From assembly GCA_947454235.1 (NCBI GenBank), contig CANGIY010000002.1, forward strand, positions 186,001 to 250,000: a stretch of 64,000 nucleotides of DNA, read 5' to 3'. Positions 54,394-60,985 of this stretch are shown piece by piece (positions within the stretch are counted from its first letter, which is position 1; the number at the start of each line of letters is the position of its first letter). The DNA comes from Chitinophagaceae bacterium. GTDB lineage: Bacteria > Bacteroidota > Bacteroidia > Chitinophagales > Chitinophagaceae. The notes under the pieces are model-generated. The model had not been told where the DNA came from. It did no database searches and was given only the letters and a program-made list of their open reading frames with translations. A program made the translations under genes and the position numbers.

Positions 54394-55338
54394 TCACTTT
54401 AATTGTTCTTGAATAAGGCGCTCAACTGAATCAGCAAATGGTTTTGCTGCGTAATAGTTGATATGAACCAAATCAGTGAAGCAAGTGTCGGGAAACGGCA
54501 TGTTTCTGCAATCAATAAATGGAACTGTTGAAAAGTCATTGTGTAGCAAATCCATGAATATTTTTTCATTCTTAGCTTCCCATGTTGGGTGTTCAGGTGT
54601 TCTAAGGAATATAATCTTGACATTCCTTTCCTTACAAAAATCGACAATTTTGCGCAAGTATTCTATTTGCCAATCTGACACAGGCATCGGGTCGGCTGCA
54701 TACATGTCGGCTATATCTTGCCTATTTTTTTTAGCAGCCGGTGTTTCTTCTGTTTGAGTTCTCCTATTTTTCAGTGCAACGATATTTGCCTTCTCCACTT
54801 CATAGCCTCCAAGTTGCAAGTCTTGTATTGTAACATTTTTATGCTTCAAAATGTCCACACAAAGGCCTGATTTCGCTTTTGGTATGCTTACAAAGTCTTT
54901 AATAACTTGTTCCGGGTTATGAACAAAAGAAAAACCTAGTTGTTTAAGGTCCACTAAATGAAAATAGCTAAGGCTTTTAATATTCACGAAATTCTCATTG
55001 CGAAGCCACAAATCCGCAAGGCGTTTTGTTATTAATTGCTCACTTACTGATAGTACTACTGTTTTTATTTGTGGGTTCAGTGGTAGCACTTTCCTCAGTT
55101 TGAAATAAGTATAAACAAATGCATCGCCCGGACTGGAGAGATTATAAATATTGTGCACGAAACTATCATTTACACCATAGGCAGTTTGTGATGCGCCTAT
55201 TAATAAAATAGGTCTATCGGGTGGTGTTTTGTAGATTGAATCATTACTGAGAATAGAACCAATACCTGATAGTAAAATTGTAAAACAGACAATGACAACA
55301 ACTGCATATATAGTAAGTAACCTAAACGCTTTCCTCAT
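54394..55338 (-). CDS. SGNH/DltD-AlgJ-like O-acyltransferase partner
   Basis: A 314-residue membrane-anchored protein. ATG 55338, two bases after the MBOAT stop, gives MRKAFRLLTIYAVVVIVCF as a membrane anchor; the longer frame reads back into the MBOAT gene. LLIGASQTAYG holds the nucleophilic Ser and DLVHINYYAAK the DxxH pair of the SGNH fold. In alginate, cellulose and teichoic acid systems such proteins (AlgJ/AlgX, DltD) finish acyl transfer to the polymer in the periplasm. Paired with the MBOAT gene, so the two probably O-acetylate an extracellular polysaccharide or glycoconjugate. Confidence 0.82.
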   Translation of the reverse strand: MRKAFRLLTIYAVVVIVCFTILLSGIGSILSNDSIYKTPPDRPILLIGASQTAYGVNDSFVHNIYNLSSPGDAFVYTYFKLRKVLPLNPQIKTVVLSVSEQLITKRLADLWLRNENFVNIKSLSYFHLVDLKQLGFSFVHNPEQVIKDFVSIPKAKSGLCVDILKHKNVTIQDLQLGGYEVEKANIVALKNRRTQTEETPAAKKNRQDIADMYAADPMPVSDWQIEYLRKIVDFCKERNVKIIFLRTPEHPTWEAKNEKIFMDLLHNDFSTVPFIDCRNMPFPDTCFTDLVHINYYAAKPFADSVERLIQEQLK

Positions 55339-55340
55339 AT

Positions 55341-56744
55341 TTAGAATTGAAAATAAATGAATGATGATGGATTGCTCACCGAATAAATTAAAACACTCAT
55401 ACCCATTATTACGTACAAAGCCCAACGAACTGGTGCACTTCCAAACGACAATACACGCCTTTCTGACTCTCGCTGAAACCAGTCAAGCAAGAATAATATC
55501 GCAACATAAATCAGACCCAATCTACTGCCTGTACTTTGTGTAACTCCATTGCCCATGCCTCGAATATAGTCTAGGGCAACATGGATATTGGGCGCTCGAA
55601 AGAATATATATGCAAAGCATACAAATGTAAATGTCAAAACAGTTCCAATTATGCTGCCCATTATCTTAGGCATTCTTTCAAATAATTGCCCCCTCCATTG
55701 TTTTGTGATAATTTCATAAGTGAGACCTACAGCATGCAGCACCCCCCACATAATAAATGTCCAGTTTGCTCCGTGCCAGAAGCCACTTATTAAGAAAATA
55801 ATAAACGTATTTCTGATTACCTTTATTCTACTTACGCGTGCCCCGCCCAGTGGTATGTAAATGTAATCGCGGAACCATGAAGAAAGAGAAATATGCCAAC
55901 GACGCCAGAAATCAGATAAGTTGGAAGCGAAATACGGATAACGGAAATTAGACAAGAGTTCAAATCCAAATAGCTTTGCAACGCCAATTGCGATACTCGT
56001 ATAACCACAAAAATCACCGTAAATCTGTACAGAGAAATAAAGGGCTCCTAGTATTAAAGTTGATCCCGGATAGCTCTTATAGTTACCAAAAATCTCATTT
56101 ACCGTAACTGCAAGCGTATCAGCAATTACTACTTTTAAGAAAAAGCCCCATAAGATTAACCGGAAACCGTCTAAAGCCTGTTCATAATTAAATGTTCTTT
56201 TGACCTTAATTTGAGGTAATAGGTTAGATCCTCTTTCAATTGGACCAGCTACTAAAAGGGGAAAGAAACAAACAAAATCGGCATAGGCTACAAAATCCCT
56301 TGTTGGTTCAATACGTTTCTTGTAAATATCAAACACATAAGACATGCCGTGGAAGGTATAAAATGAAATTCCGACTGGAGCAACGATGCTTAATAACCAC
56401 GGTGAAAAATGTATCCCTATTGCGTCAAAAGCCTCCTGAATATTGACAGCGAAAAAATTATAATACTTAAAAAAGCCAAGCACAGCCAAATTATTGACAA
56501 TACTCAACCAATAAAACAATTTCCGGTATTTAACTGAATTATGGACAAGTAATCCGAATACGTAATCTATAAGTGTAGAAAGCACCAGTAAAAACAAAAA
56601 TTTCCAGTTCCAGCAAGCATAAAAGAAATAACTAGAAAATAGCAAAAGTGCATTCTGGACTTTCAAATTCTTATTGAATACGTGCCAGTATAATAGAAAC
56701 ACTACTAGCAGAAAAACCACGAATTCGAAGGAATTGAAAAGCAT
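55341..56744 (-). CDS. MBOAT-family membrane O-acyltransferase (AlgI/DltB-like)
   Basis: A 467-residue inner-membrane protein with about ten to twelve helices. Typical motifs are FLLYWHVFNKNLKVQN at the start, PVGISFYTFHGMSYVFDIYK, SNFRYPYFASNLSDFWRRWHISLSSWFRDYIYIPLGG in pieces, and SGFWHGANWTFIMWGVLHA with the catalytic His residues. It moves an acyl group across the membrane to a periplasmic acceptor. The SGNH partner gene begins 2 bp downstream. It is divergent from the cobalamin-riboswitch operon. The substrate could be the polymer of the 36-43 kb operon, but they are 11 kb apart. Confidence 0.93.
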   Translation of the reverse strand: MLFNSFEFVVFLLVVFLLYWHVFNKNLKVQNALLLFSSYFFYACWNWKFLFLLVLSTLIDYVFGLLVHNSVKYRKLFYWLSIVNNLAVLGFFKYYNFFAVNIQEAFDAIGIHFSPWLLSIVAPVGISFYTFHGMSYVFDIYKKRIEPTRDFVAYADFVCFFPLLVAGPIERGSNLLPQIKVKRTFNYEQALDGFRLILWGFFLKVVIADTLAVTVNEIFGNYKSYPGSTLILGALYFSVQIYGDFCGYTSIAIGVAKLFGFELLSNFRYPYFASNLSDFWRRWHISLSSWFRDYIYIPLGGARVSRIKVIRNTFIIFLISGFWHGANWTFIMWGVLHAVGLTYEIITKQWRGQLFERMPKIMGSIIGTVLTFTFVCFAYIFFRAPNIHVALDYIRGMGNGVTQSTGSRLGLIYVAILFLLDWFQRESERRVLSFGSAPVRWALYVIMGMSVLIYSVSNPSSFIYFQF

Positions 56745-57226
56745 TTTTTACGGTAAAAATAAAAAACATTACGAATCTCTTTAGTCAAAATCCACTAAAC
56801 TAGCTTCCCTACAATTAGGTATTTTTTTTTGCAATATTTAAAATTTGACTTACCGGGTTTTACTCCACCGATTTCTGACCAAAAACGATTTTTTTGGGAA
56901 GCTTCACAAAAACTCCTACTTTTGCTACGCATTGGTTTCCGCCGTTGGCGGGATTAAAAGGGAACCGTGGTGAAAATCCCGGGCATTACCCGATGCTGTA
57001 AGCTTCATTTACAATACTGTTTTAACTCCTACGCCACTGTTCGGCAAACAACGAATGGGAAGGCTTTGAAACAGCGAAGCGAGCCAGAAGACCTGCCGTT
57101 GCATATTACTTATCGCTGCTTTCGGGAAAAAAAGCACAGGTAGGAGAAAGGTCTCTGACAAGTCTCTTTTCTTTTATTCTGACTCAATCCGTAGCTGCAT
57201 GTATGTGAGATTTTAAACTTGCTGAT
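56745..57226. other. Intergenic region: promoter area, cobalamin riboswitch and leader
   Basis: This divergent spacer between the MBOAT gene and the DUF4465 operon. The first 185 bp are AT-rich with no clear motif; the riboswitch fills 56931-57105; the last 120 bp contain a pyrimidine-rich stretch (57160-57180) that could belong to the expression platform, though no textbook terminator was seen. Confidence 0.7.
56931..57105 (+). promoter_or_regulatory. Cobalamin (B12) riboswitch aptamer
   Basis: Consensus blocks occur in the right order and spacing: TTAAAAGGGAA (56954-56964), GGTGAAAATCCC (56969-56980), GCCACTG (57033-57039), GGGAAGGC (57057-57064) and the B12 box GAGCCAGAAGACCTGCC (57081-57097). 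The start codon of the DUF4465 gene is about 130 nt beyond the box. Adenosyl- or other cobalamins would turn expression of the downstream genes off. Confidence 0.95.
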
Positions 57227-58240
57227 ATGCGCAGAATTTTATTTTTATTTGCCGGCCTGCTCGCCGGTGCCACAGTTGCCAAAGCGCAAACTGTAGCCAC
57301 ATTCGATACCCTTACACTACCGGGTACCGATACATGTTATGTTAACTACAGCCACCCCGGTACTGATGTTGGTTTTGCTGATGGGCATGCCTGGTTCCCA
57401 TGTGTGTACGACACTGGTTTTGGCTCTTCTTATTGGAGCTCAGGGTTTGTGTATTCTAACAAAATCGATACTACCACCAGTGGTTTTACCAATCAGTATT
57501 CAGTGAAAAATGGGCACGACTACAGCGGTACCGGAAAATATGTGGTTGAGTACGGACAACAAACGAAGTTGATGCTCACAGGTGCTGCTCTTGGACACCC
57601 CGTTTCGGGCTTTTACATCACTAATTCAACGTACACTTATAACAGTATGCGCGATGGTGATGGGTTTGCTAAGAAATTTGGCGATACTACCCACTCTGGT
57701 ATTACAACCGGGCAAGGCACTGCGCCCGATTGGTTTAAAGTAACCATAAAAGGTATGTACCATGGTAGTTTTGCCACCGACTCGGTTGATTATTATCTTG
57801 CCGACTACCGCCCAGCAGGTACTGCTAACGATTCAATTGTGCGTGGCTGGAACTGGGTGAACTTACTTCCTTTGGGCAATGTAGATTCTATCTTTTTCTA
57901 TCTTTCTTCGTCAGACAATGGTAGTTTTGGTATGAACACCCCTGCTTACTTTTGCATGGATCAGTTTACTACGCTCGACCATAATTTGAGTGTATCTACA
58001 ACCAACCAATCTAAAATTGCGGTGTACCCTAACCCTGCTACTAACGAAATACACTTTGCAGGTATTAACAGTGATACTTACAATGTAACTATCAAAGACA
58101 TTACAGGTAAAACATTGAATATCTTTGAATTAAATGCAGGCAATACTACTATTGATGTAAGTAACTTAAAATCGGGTATGTATTTAATAGAGTTCGAAAA
58201 TCAAGAAACCCGCTTCACTGAAAAACTCATCAAAAATTAA
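57227..58240 (+). CDS. DUF4465-type B12-regulated surface protein with T9SS domain
   Basis: A 337-residue secreted protein. Signal peptide MRRILFLFAGLLAGATVAKAQ; residues 22-255 are a beta-sandwich of the DUF4465 type (TFDTLTLPGTDTCYVNYS, GFVYSNKIDTTTSGFTNQYS, DWFKVTIKGMYHGS, YYLADYRP, then YFCMDQFTTL). The last 75 residues are a T9SS sorting domain (AVYPNPATNEIHF, LKSGMYLIEF, ending KLIKN). DUF4465 proteins occur in Bacteroidota B12-uptake loci, and I recall that BtuH-type cobalamin binders belong near this family. It lies directly behind a cobalamin riboswitch. In gut Bacteroides such proteins are lipoproteins; here display is through T9SS instead. Confidence 0.85.
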   Translation: MRRILFLFAGLLAGATVAKAQTVATFDTLTLPGTDTCYVNYSHPGTDVGFADGHAWFPCVYDTGFGSSYWSSGFVYSNKIDTTTSGFTNQYSVKNGHDYSGTGKYVVEYGQQTKLMLTGAALGHPVSGFYITNSTYTYNSMRDGDGFAKKFGDTTHSGITTGQGTAPDWFKVTIKGMYHGSFATDSVDYYLADYRPAGTANDSIVRGWNWVNLLPLGNVDSIFFYLSSSDNGSFGMNTPAYFCMDQFTTLDHNLSVSTTNQSKIAVYPNPATNEIHFAGINSDTYNVTIKDITGKTLNIFELNAGNTTIDVSNLKSGMYLIEFENQETRFTEKLIKN

Positions 58241-58242
58241 TT

Positions 58243-59244
58243 TTGAGATACCTGTATTCCATATTACTTGTATTAACAACAAGCAGTGTGTTCGCCCAAT
58301 ATGCACCACAGGTGGGTATGTCGGGCTGCGACGCCATCCCCGATAGCTCCCATTTGTTTGTGGGTTGGGCGAACACTTGCATAGTACACCGAGGATACCT
58401 GAACATTGACTTCCCTGCCCTAGGCACCACAACATCCGGCGATTCATCGTTGAGCTTGGGTGTACCTGATAGAATGGTGGTTAGTTTGGGTGATTCAGGG
58501 TATGCGACTCTTACTTTTGACGGGTATCTATACAACGGGCCGGGTGCTGACTTCGCAGTTTTTGAAAACGGCTTCGCTAACCCCACCAACGATTCTCAGG
58601 CATTCCTTGAGCTGGCGTTCGTGGAAGTGAGTTCTGACGGTGAGAACTTCTTTAGATTTCCGGCACAATCACTCACAAATACACAAACTCAAATTCCAGG
58701 TTCAGGAGTGTACATGTATGCCAACCTGATTCATAACCTGGCCGGTAAATACATTGCAAATTGGGGTACTCCGTTTGATTTAGAGGACTTGGCAGGTATT
58801 TCGGGGCTCGATATCAATCGCATAACACATGTTAGATTGGTAGATGTTGTTGGTGATGTCAATGCCCGTCATGCATGTTTCGATAGCGCAGGCAGAACCA
58901 TCAACGACCCCTTCCCTACCCAATTCCCAACCGGGGGCTTCGACCTCGATGCTGTTGGCGCTATTCATGTACATGGTAGTACAGGAATTACTTCAGTGCA
59001 ACAATCATCAAGTACTTTCATTTACCCCCAGCCTGCCGGCGATGTTGTATCACTAATCCAACAAGACTGCACCAACGGGTTTCAGTACTTAGTTGTATCA
59101 CTCGATGGTCGTTTGATGCTGGAAGGTACAGCAACAACTACAACAACTCAGGTGAATATAAGTAACTTGCAGAGCTGTGTATATAGCATCATCGTCAAAG
59201 ATTCAAAGGGCAAAAAATGGGTGGAAAAACTAGTGCATTACTAG
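58243..59244 (+). CDS. B12-regulated T9SS cell-surface protein
   Basis: A 333-residue secreted protein, second in the riboswitch operon, 2 bp after the first stop, with a TTG start; no ATG precedes the signal peptide (MRYLYSILLVLTTSSVFAQ). The body is beta-rich: GDSGYATLTFDGYLYNGPGADFAVFENGF, in pieces, and FLELAFVEVSSDGENFFRFP resemble the cell-surface protein that neighbours DUF4465 in other B12 loci. DLAGISGLDINRITHVRLVDVVGD follows, and HACFDSAGRTINDPFP precedes the tail. The C-terminus (IYPQPAGDVVSLI, ending KLVHY) is a T9SS domain. A cobalamin or cobinamide ligand is inferred from context only. Confidence 0.8.
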   Translation: MRYLYSILLVLTTSSVFAQYAPQVGMSGCDAIPDSSHLFVGWANTCIVHRGYLNIDFPALGTTTSGDSSLSLGVPDRMVVSLGDSGYATLTFDGYLYNGPGADFAVFENGFANPTNDSQAFLELAFVEVSSDGENFFRFPAQSLTNTQTQIPGSGVYMYANLIHNLAGKYIANWGTPFDLEDLAGISGLDINRITHVRLVDVVGDVNARHACFDSAGRTINDPFPTQFPTGGFDLDAVGAIHVHGSTGITSVQQSSSTFIYPQPAGDVVSLIQQDCTNGFQYLVVSLDGRLMLEGTATTTTTQVNISNLQSCVYSIIVKDSKGKKWVEKLVHY

Positions 59245-60296
59245 CATTTTTATGGCTGCTGGCGGGTTGTGTAAAAGACACACCTAATCCGGCTACATCA
59301 ACCATTCCTCTATCTGAACAAGGCATTTATACCATTTGCGAAGGGCTGAACAATACTACAACAGGCGGTTTATATTTTATTGCCGCCAATAACGACAGCA
59401 CTTACGGCGATTTGTTTCAGTCCGCCAACAGCACCAATGCAGGAGAACTGTTTCAAAGCATGGCTTCGATAAACAACCATCTGTATATGGTGATGAATGA
59501 ATCGAATAAAATCGTAGTCATTGACCGTAAGACATACCTCAAAACCCTGGAGATATCTGTTCCTGCACCGCGGTATATTTGTCAGGTGTCTGATTCTGTT
59601 GCGTATATTTCTTCCTATTTACTGAAACGCACACAGGTCTATGTGTACAGGCTCAACATAACAACCAACACCATTACTGACTCTATTCAATTTCCATTTA
59701 ATAATACTGACGGCATGTGTGTAGCACAGGGCAGGCTTTTGGTGGCCTGTTGGGACACAATGTGCAACCATGTGTATGTAATTGACCCTAACTCAAATCA
59801 AATCACCGATTCTATGTCGGTTGCGGGGCGTGCTCCCAATTCCATTTTTACCGATGCTAATCAAAATATTTGGGTGTTATCTGGTAATCCGGTCAATAGA
59901 TACCAGGCCTACTTCACACAAATTGACCCTATTACACACGCTCAATTAAAAGTACTGCCTTTTTCAACCGAGGCCATCCCCTTCCGCCCCACCCTCAATA
60001 AAACGAAGGATACCATTTACTACATCAATGCCGACTATTTTTTCAATGGTGCACCAAATGGTGTTTTCCGATTTGGCATCAATGAAACTGAGCTACCGAC
60101 TACGCCGTTAATCCCTGCCGATAAATACCATTACTTCTATGCACTGGGAATACACCCAATTTCAGGGCACATTTATATAGGCGACCCAATGGGCTGGCAA
60201 CAATCAGGGGTTGTTCAGGAATACAATACTTTAGGGCAAAAACTAAAAACCTACAAAGTGGGTATTGGTCCAAACTCTTTTATCTTCAATTTCTGA
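59217..60296 (+). CDS. BtuG-like beta-propeller lipoprotein (DUF5074/YncE type)
   Basis: A 359-residue predicted surface lipoprotein with lipobox LLAGC (Cys17) directly after MGGKTSALLAFLW. The mature part is a seven-bladed propeller: QGIYTICEGLNN, MVMNESNKIVVIDRKT, DGMCVAQGRLLVACW, HVYVIDPNSNQITDSM, RAPNSIFTDANQNIWVL, and the closing IYIGDPMGWQQSGVVQEY with VGIGPNSFIFNF. These match the pattern of BtuG, which binds B12 and hands it to BtuB. The gene overlaps the preceding gene by 28 bp, so it belongs to the riboswitch operon. No btuB or btuFCD gene follows; recR comes next after 68 bp. Confidence 0.83.
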   Translation: MGGKTSALLAFLWLLAGCVKDTPNPATSTIPLSEQGIYTICEGLNNTTTGGLYFIAANNDSTYGDLFQSANSTNAGELFQSMASINNHLYMVMNESNKIVVIDRKTYLKTLEISVPAPRYICQVSDSVAYISSYLLKRTQVYVYRLNITTNTITDSIQFPFNNTDGMCVAQGRLLVACWDTMCNHVYVIDPNSNQITDSMSVAGRAPNSIFTDANQNIWVLSGNPVNRYQAYFTQIDPITHAQLKVLPFSTEAIPFRPTLNKTKDTIYYINADYFFNGAPNGVFRFGINETELPTTPLIPADKYHYFYALGIHPISGHIYIGDPMGWQQSGVVQEYNTLGQKLKTYKVGIGPNSFIFNF

Positions 60297-60364: not shown

Positions 60365-60985
60365 ATGATATTCTCTTCAAAACTCATTGAAGATGCTGTG
60401 GCAGAATTTTCAAAACTGCCGGGAATTGGAAAGAAAACCGCGTTACGCATGGTTTTACATTTGCTCAATGCCAATGTGAATGAAGTAGATGTTTTTTCCA
60501 GTACCATAGCCAGAATGCGCCATGAAATAAAGTTTTGTAAATCGTGCCACAATGTTTCTGACACCGATGAATGTACGGTATGCAGCAATCCCGGTCGCAA
60601 TCGAAGTCAGGTATGTGTAGTTGAAAACTTCAGAGATATTATTGCTATTGAAAGTACCCAGCAGTACAGCGGTTTATACCATGTTTTGGGTGGGCTTATC
60701 GCTCCGCTTGATGGCATTGGACCCGAACAACTGAAAATAGATACACTGGTAGAACGTGTAAAAAAAGACGAGATCAAAGAACTGATTATGGCAATTTCAC
60801 CAAATGTTGAAGGAGATACTACCATATACTATATTGCAAAAAAGCTCAAAGAGATGCCTGTTTCAATAACAACTATTGCACGCGGTATATCTTTTGGCGG
60901 CGAACTTGAATATGCTGATGAAATGACACTTGCTAAGTCCATTTCAAAGAGGCTACCGGTTGAAAACTACGTTAATGTGAGATAA
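60365..60985 (+). CDS. recR: Recombination protein RecR
   Basis: A 206-residue DNA-repair protein of the RecFOR pathway. Features in order: helix-hairpin-helix (SKLPGIGKKTALRMVLHLL), zinc finger (CKSCHNVSDTDECTVC), TOPRIM domain (VCVVENFRDIIAIE to YHVLGGLIAPLDGIGP), and the C-terminal ARGISFGGELEYADEMTL motif. The length and all motifs are normal. It may be expressed with the small membrane-protein gene 12 bp downstream. Confidence 0.97.
   Translation: MIFSSKLIEDAVAEFSKLPGIGKKTALRMVLHLLNANVNEVDVFSSTIARMRHEIKFCKSCHNVSDTDECTVCSNPGRNRSQVCVVENFRDIIAIESTQQYSGLYHVLGGLIAPLDGIGPEQLKIDTLVERVKKDEIKELIMAISPNVEGDTTIYYIAKKLKEMPVSITTIARGISFGGELEYADEMTLAKSISKRLPVENYVNVR

Follow-up and report, generated by a model that had tools for sequence, protein, structure and literature searches.

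How does a member of the Bacteroidota take up corrinoids when a cobalamin riboswitch precedes genes for surface binders and no transporter gene lies beside them? This question is raised by a three-gene operon of a Chitinophagaceae bacterium (assembly GCA_947454235.1), found in positions 186,001 to 250,000 of contig CANGIY010000002.1, a stretch of 64,000 nucleotides hereafter called the window. The operon encodes a BtuJ-type protein (J), a middle protein that we call P2 and a BtuG-type lipoprotein (G). The operon is genuine and conserved, a variant form of the btu operons with which Bacteroidota capture B12, and in our reading it specifies the outer-surface part of a corrinoid salvage system whose btuB gene has been displaced, a reading to which we assign a probability of roughly 0.8. 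The features of the locus, in window coordinates, are as follows.

56894..56924, + strand: promoter-like pair TTG-N20-TACTTTTG, read from the sequence, at the first bases of the aptamer
56916..57114, + strand: cobalamin riboswitch aptamer, RF00174, full-length covariance-model match
57115..57226, + strand: leader from aptamer to first gene; no expression platform assigned from the fold or terminator scan
57227..58240, + strand: gene 1, BtuJ-type protein with a signal peptide-like start, a DUF4465 jelly-roll and a C-terminal type IX secretion system (T9SS) type A sorting domain, from domain matches
58243..59244, + strand: gene 2, P2, a likely BtuH-like surface protein with a core of about 220 residues and a C-terminal T9SS type A sorting domain, from the tail match, a profile link and context
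59217..60296, + strand: gene 3, BtuG-type propeller lipoprotein, from DUF5074, BtuG chains and a lipobox
60365..60985, + strand: recR, from RecR domains; a downstream neighbour outside the system

A cobalamin riboswitch at the head of the operon

The RNA upstream of gene 1 matches RF00174 over model positions 1-189; it scores 103.4 bits, where the gathering threshold is 31.5, at an E-value of 8.9e-25. A preliminary description of the locus had recognized a B12 aptamer from position 56931 and had named a covariance-model search as a possible refutation; the search scored the RNA as cobalamin, and the aptamer begins 15 bases before that position. Model R1, of which this aptamer is itself a member, gives 175.1 bits. 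Ligand-dependent control would be expected from the class. No other RF00174 match occurs in the assembly (4.17 Mb searched).

The TTG / TAnnTTTG pair at the start of the aptamer is of what we take to be the Bacteroidota -33/-7 promoter type, with TAnnTTTG as the -7 element. In 58 of 70 riboswitches, those of the window and 69 other loci, a TAnnTTTG box falls between -30 and +20 relative to the aptamer start, while random 50-mers drawn at these loci contain one in 2.5% of cases; a TTG stands 18-22 bases upstream in 21 of the 70. The leader does not fold better than its shuffles (z -1.22), and no terminator-like site was found on its + strand.

The BtuJ-type and BtuG-type proteins

The three genes are tightly packed, with a gap of 2 bp between the first and second and an overlap of 28 bp between the second and third, and recR follows, all as first described. 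Their identification as two T9SS-tailed proteins without a lipobox and a BtuG-type lipoprotein is likewise upheld by the domain matches. The order J-P2-G is kept in seven genus relatives, six of which also have the riboswitch; in the seventh, the contig breaks off immediately ahead of the riboswitch site.

Gene 1 is a DUF4465 protein (PF14717; E 2.3e-49, 168.6 bits against a cut-off of 25) and matches solved members of this family, including BtuJ1 (9fct, E 3.1e-17). These matches rule out a BtuH identity for it: the DUF4465 protein belongs to BtuJ, and the BtuH-like one is likely the middle protein. The HI-loop that holds a B12-contacting Tyr in BtuJ1, MNTPSYF, aligns to MNTPAYF in gene 1. Among 52 related J proteins, xTP[AST]YF is present in only 29, another P-x-Y form in five and neither in 18, and the motif is therefore not general among them. 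The T9SS tail of gene 1 is recognized by Por_Secre_tail (E 1.9e-14) and by TIGR04183 (52.7 against 23 bits); we take IPR026444 to be the entry for this C-terminal sorting domain. In one survey, 229 of 824 DUF4465 proteins were already counted with IPR026444 (PMC12751083), and T9SS-tailed DUF4465 proteins are thus not new. Corrinoid (B12) binding has been published for eight divergent DUF4465/BtuJ members (PMC13398666), a family with which gene 1 shares the domain and the NTPAYF loop with its contacting Tyr and from which it differs by the tail, albeit one that other members in print also carry. In Bacteroides thetaiotaomicron (B. theta), BtuJ1 and BtuJ2 are tight B12 binders that deliver cobalamin on vesicles (PMC12751083).

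By its family, the gene 1 protein would bind corrinoids, and its tail predicts export by the T9SS. Proteins exported by the T9SS can end up either free or attached to the cell, and vesicle delivery by the B. theta BtuJ proteins would fit a role in which the tailed proteins are released and act like protein siderophores or on vesicles, and not as anchored helpers of BtuG. The sequence itself is neutral between anchoring and release, but BtuG, with its lipid anchor, suggests that the system remains at the surface at least in part, and we regard release as unlikely but not negligible.

Gene 3 matches DUF5074 (E 3.7e-17) and, by sequence comparison over residues 30-356, the BtuG chains of B. theta (E about 2e-25). 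All 82 proteins of the alignment, among them that of the window, share the lipobox Cys18. Together with the receptor described below, it resembles the BtuBG complex (PMC10404256) in that both partners are closest in the PDB to B. theta chains; the differences are that the two genes are unlinked here and that two of the five named BtuG2 pocket residues are kept.

A BtuB-type receptor encoded at a distance

The preliminary description reported an operon without any TonB receptor, which is true of the surroundings of the operon but not of the genome. A BtuB-type receptor is encoded at G000:C2:133806-135656 (G000 being the genome of the window), about 107 kb from the operon. This vindicates the suggestion that the binders might be shared with a distant BtuB, and rules out the other one made at the time, a receptor-free system scavenging released corrinoids. 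More generally, B12 binders encoded with no receptor next to them need not form a receptor-free system.

The genome holds 24 TonB plug-domain matches and the linkage has been lost, so one may ask whether another receptor, or none, serves BtuG. We consider this improbable. The distant receptor is the only strong match to the operonic BtuB of a family member (E 1.5e-96; the next receptor of the same genome reaches 1.7e-5), and at E <= 0.001 it matches nothing in the PDB but four BtuB chains, those of 8p97, 8p98, 8bmx and 8blw. The BtuB3 entries 8p97 and 8p98 (BtuB3G3) are best, at E 1.2e-42 and 1.9e-42; 8blw is BtuB1G1, and the receptor chain of 8bmx is taken as BtuB2, the paper giving 8BMX as BtuG2. 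The receptor lies below the cut-off of the NCBIfam equivalog TIGR01779 (81.9 against 599.7 bits). It also mostly co-occurs with DUF4465: in a sample of 20 chosen relatives of the 38 listed, a strong BtuB (E below 1e-40) was found in eight of nine with DUF4465 against two of 11 without, and the sole DUF4465 relative lacking one has a genome that is 84% complete.

In a tree of 65 BtuB proteins, the ten unlinked copies fall inside a supported clade with operonic ones (inner 30-row branch 100/99), although the exact place of the window genome's BtuB in that clade is not settled. The tree needs four linkage changes, two of them forced by its starred branches, so that displacement may have happened more than once. 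BtuB neighbours vary among genus members, with L156 sharing those of the window's genome. The operonic order J-P2-G-BtuB in sister lineages and the nesting of unlinked BtuBs among operonic ones argue that the operon was split, and the locus looks like a btu operon with a displaced btuB.

P2, a likely BtuH-like protein of btu operons

P2 starts at a TTG codon, a start supported by aligned orthologues. Its tail gives the only Pfam match over cut-off (Por_Secre_tail, E 5.9e-8) and a TIGR04183 score of 25.8 against 23 bits. No Pfam model matches the core over cut-off: among 69 members, 68 have the T9SS tail, one has DUF3244 and nothing else is found. The window's P2 touches DUF4330 below that model's cut-off, and NCBIfam LIC_13355 (NF033170) is reached at E <= 0.001, below its threshold, by 50 of the 69 (window P2, 25 against 120 bits). 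With Pfam and NCBIfam yielding T9SS models, one DUF3244 and these two sub-threshold matches, membership of a known family was rejected.

P2 is frequent in riboswitch-controlled btu operons, and in the libraries used it has no name beyond that of its secretion tail. Named genomes, when scanned, gave at least 559 P2 relatives among 591 candidate stretches; the 80 best were retained, several of them truncated at contig ends. At these best 80 loci, BtuG is found in 72, BtuB in 56 and DUF4465 in 51 (BLAST E <= 1e-8), the commonest orders being J-P2-G-BtuB (14) and P2-BtuB-G (10). Model R1 finds a cobalamin riboswitch at 70 of the 80, one of them truncated where its contig stops; for the building of R1, four of these contigs had also supplied riboswitches.

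Such a sample could reflect close kinship, and distant relatives found by sequence alone were therefore examined: 18 of the 22 listed core-type matches of a phylum-wide profile search, the four from genera already taken being left out. BtuB or BtuG matches stand in the fetched stretch in 14 of the 18 (BLAST E <= 1e-9) and a riboswitch in ten; at least one of BtuB, BtuG and the riboswitch is present in 15, and none in L216, L221 and L224. The 18 are not all independent, since some share a genus. Seven of them were scanned, with no Pfam match in the core and LIC_13355 below threshold in all seven. One distant P2 (L227:3587-4651) begins with a Cys-rich DUF5522 stretch (Pfam), and the N-termini in L229 and L230 are similar, by fusion or upstream read-in. 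The phylum scan, run with the A2 profile, had matches in 262 of 395 genomes, but most of those listed are confined to the T9SS tail and at most about five candidates per genome were scored, so that true P2s may be missed and the figure is no count of P2; among the matches listed, near full-length P2 occurs in nine genomes, the window's included.

An alignment of 23 P2 proteins keeps D84, F88-E89-N90, F92, E104, FDL 159-161 and FDLD 214-217. When a profile of 87 P2 proteins is compared with the BtuH-like proteins found in relative G012, hhalign aligns the two at the same motif (probability 53%, E 1.3e-4), and with a stretch of B. theta BtuGH added the values become 72% and E 3.4e-5, with a score of 41.3 over 50 columns. 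By comparison, the best of 200 column shuffles scores 20.8, the J family 15.3 and the G family 14.2. P2 is thus likely a BtuH-like jelly-roll protein, and from this likely homology it would probably bind a corrinoid too.

The relation is distant. With the Asn of the GNAF motif of the G012 BtuH-like protein set against BtuH2 Asn399, and the BtuH2 contact residues taken from PMC8941943, Phe401 and Trp577 are matched by Phe and Trp and the five other contacts do not coincide. Only two of seven further contacts matching in residue type would suit a P2 that is an accessory surface protein with no corrinoid binding, either a scaffold of BtuG and BtuB or a vesicle factor like BtuL. The B. theta proteins offer precedents: BtuL, between BtuH2 and BtuG2 by locus number, does not bind cobalamin and promotes vesicle release, and BtuK2 failed to bind, unlike the similar BtuK1. 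Against an accessory role, the profile link to BtuH-type proteins covers the conserved Asn-x-Phe motif, whose P2 residues are highly conserved (N90 in 68 of 69, F92 in 66 of 69), a pattern that a site for ligand or calcium would show. We therefore consider an accessory P2 possible but doubtful.

Placing P2 with BtuH, if true, would give a likely function to many unnamed surface proteins. A wider proposal is that P2 and BtuH form a superfamily of extracellular corrinoid-binding jelly-roll proteins across the Bacteroidota and relatives, lacking a Pfam model and maybe reaching Leptospira LIC_13355, and that the genus of the window's bacterium couples T9SS-exported binders to an unlinked BtuB and an inner-membrane carrier other than BtuCD; taken as a whole, we would give it slightly less than an even chance. 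LIC_13355 is the only named family that the P2 core touches, P2 remaining below its cut-off. The Leptospira lipoprotein is described as a laminin and plasminogen binder (PMC11891782), and that paper nowhere uses the word cobalamin. The context of P2 raises the corrinoid question for these lipoproteins. In the literature searched, which left out most subscription papers, no T9SS-exported BtuH-like protein or operon of this kind was found.

Comparison with the B. theta operon

Cobamide operon 2 of B. theta reads, by locus number, btuJ2, btuH2, btuL, btuG2, btuB2, btuF, btuC, btuD (PMC12751083, PMC8941943). The operon in the window resembles it in the cobalamin riboswitch, in the BtuJ-type gene first, the putative BtuH-type gene next and then BtuG, and many sister lineages add BtuB. 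It differs in that BtuB is encoded 107 kb away and no FecCD permease was found in the genome, in that the first two proteins have T9SS tails in place of lipoboxes, and in that P2 would be a shorter, distant relative of BtuH without PKD domains. In Flavobacterium psychrophilum, a cobalamin riboswitch lies upstream of a TonB receptor (PMC9723704).

Evidence that weighs against the reading

Four sets of results speak against parts of this account: the structure and short-profile searches with P2, the ligand face of BtuG, the regulation of the distant btuB and the inner-membrane step.

A first P2 alignment of 12 rows, compared with single BtuH-like proteins, gave hhalign probabilities of 0.5 and 2.4%, not significant, and the signal is seen only with a wide profile. 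Used as a query against the PDB, the same 12-row profile returned T9SS tails and one chance match, with no BtuH chain. The AlphaFold2 model of P2 is confident (mean pLDDT 93.8), and Foldseek with the full-length model listed no BtuH chain among 50 matches, which are mostly glycosidase-like two-domain proteins (TMq 0.15-0.23) and T9SS C-terminal domains; their dominance makes this search uninformative for the core, and a viral structure library was likewise uninformative. A tail-less core modelled from the diverse alignment A4 is weaker (mean pLDDT 62). It found nothing at E 0.001, the top rows being F5/8-type and CBM32-like domains. In the structural comparison of P2 with BtuH that was proposed at the outset, 8blw_B, a BtuGH fusion, has the highest TMq (0.45) among the 50 matches listed for the core, but it stands at rank 11, behind F5/8-type domains, with E 0.04 and a root-mean-square deviation (rmsd) of 12.2, and the alignment may fall on either part of the fusion.

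The BtuG ligand face, checked by alignment, is only partly supported. Five B12-pocket residues of BtuG2 are named in PMC10404256. In the window's BtuG, Trp194 and Tyr316 are kept, Tyr335 is replaced by Trp, Trp272 by Ile, and Tyr239 is lost. Trp at position 272 occurs in none of the 82 aligned proteins and is thus no mark of the wider BtuG family. Of the 47 positions that at least 80% of the 82 share, the window's protein departs from consensus at ten; in BtuG2 numbering, it has E180D, where 81 of 82 carry Glu, and N108E, where 74 carry Asn.

No riboswitch was detected in the 19 kb fetched around the distant receptor gene, nor near the BtuB matches of ten relatives (stretches of 2-4.9 kb; L159 gave a partial match only), so that binders and porter would not be co-regulated by one. 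The search for btuB and further B12 riboswitches that the preliminary description had recommended therefore yielded the former and, in this assembly, no second riboswitch.

The inner-membrane step is the fourth point. No FecCD/BtuC permease was found in the genome at E <= 0.001, in a search positive in 13 of 14 control genomes, and the import route as known is accordingly incomplete. FecCD is also missing from eight of nine genus relatives searched, seven of which keep J-P2-G, and among 15 relatives it was found in G009, G011, G029 and G030 only. The sole BtuF-like protein, a 263-residue 'helical backbone metal receptor' (L175:7895-8686, contig C2 of the same genome), falls below the BtuF cut-off and has no evident signal peptide.

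The consensus departures of BtuG and the lack of FecCD in this genome and most relatives would suit a decaying or repurposed operon, in which BtuG and BtuB have diverged from one another and the binders have ceased to supply import. All three frames, however, are open, J-P2-G is kept across the genus relatives, mostly with its riboswitch, and B12 enzymes are retained, namely the B12-dependent part of MetH, IcmF and a protein of the methylmalonyl-CoA mutase C-terminal type. Many B12-auxotrophic Gram-negative bacteria with BtuB lack BtuCDF (PMC6072759), which makes the absence of FecCD here an instance of an already known open question. Decay is in our view very unlikely, and the reading of a btu operon with a displaced btuB is retained.

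The lack of FecCD beside retained B12 enzymes points to a further inner-membrane B12 carrier. The conserved neighbour clusters inspected gave no convincing candidate, and such a carrier can be sought by comparing members of the genus and family with and without BtuC. Of the two leads, P2 deserves follow-up most, being a protein with a confident model that is suited to direct B12-binding work, and the carrier comes second.

A proposed path for corrinoids

From these sequence data, the following path can be proposed. When cobalamin is scarce, the riboswitch would let the operon be expressed, as is known for its class, and cobalamin would repress it. BtuJ and P2 would be exported by the T9SS, as their tails predict, and BtuG anchored by its lipid. 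The BtuJ-type protein and the BtuH-like P2 would collect corrinoids and concentrate them near BtuG, which may itself bind them and, by analogy with the B. theta BtuBG complex, would serve as a lid on the BtuB whose gene lies 107 kb away. After hand-over to BtuG and BtuB, import by BtuB would draw on TonB energy, and the imported B12 would serve MetH, IcmF and the methylmalonyl-CoA mutase-type protein. CobS gave no match in the genome at E <= 0.001, in a search positive in ten of 14 control genomes, which counts in favour of this reading. PorP/SprF T9SS proteins are encoded in the genome, and two genes of this family lie beside metH on contig C4 (L177:8061-10265), divergent from it.

Neighbouring genes

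recR also lies directly downstream of the operon in genus relative L019, and two genes intervene in L022. Divergent from the B12 operon, on the - strand at window positions 54394-56744, an MBOAT acyltransferase gene is followed by that of a protein with a sub-threshold DUF1574 match, a pair that resembles those of surface-glycan acylation. Just past the window, a 4694-residue open frame runs on the - strand (L034:1-14082, contig C2 positions 250001-264082) and is truncated where the stretch fetched begins.

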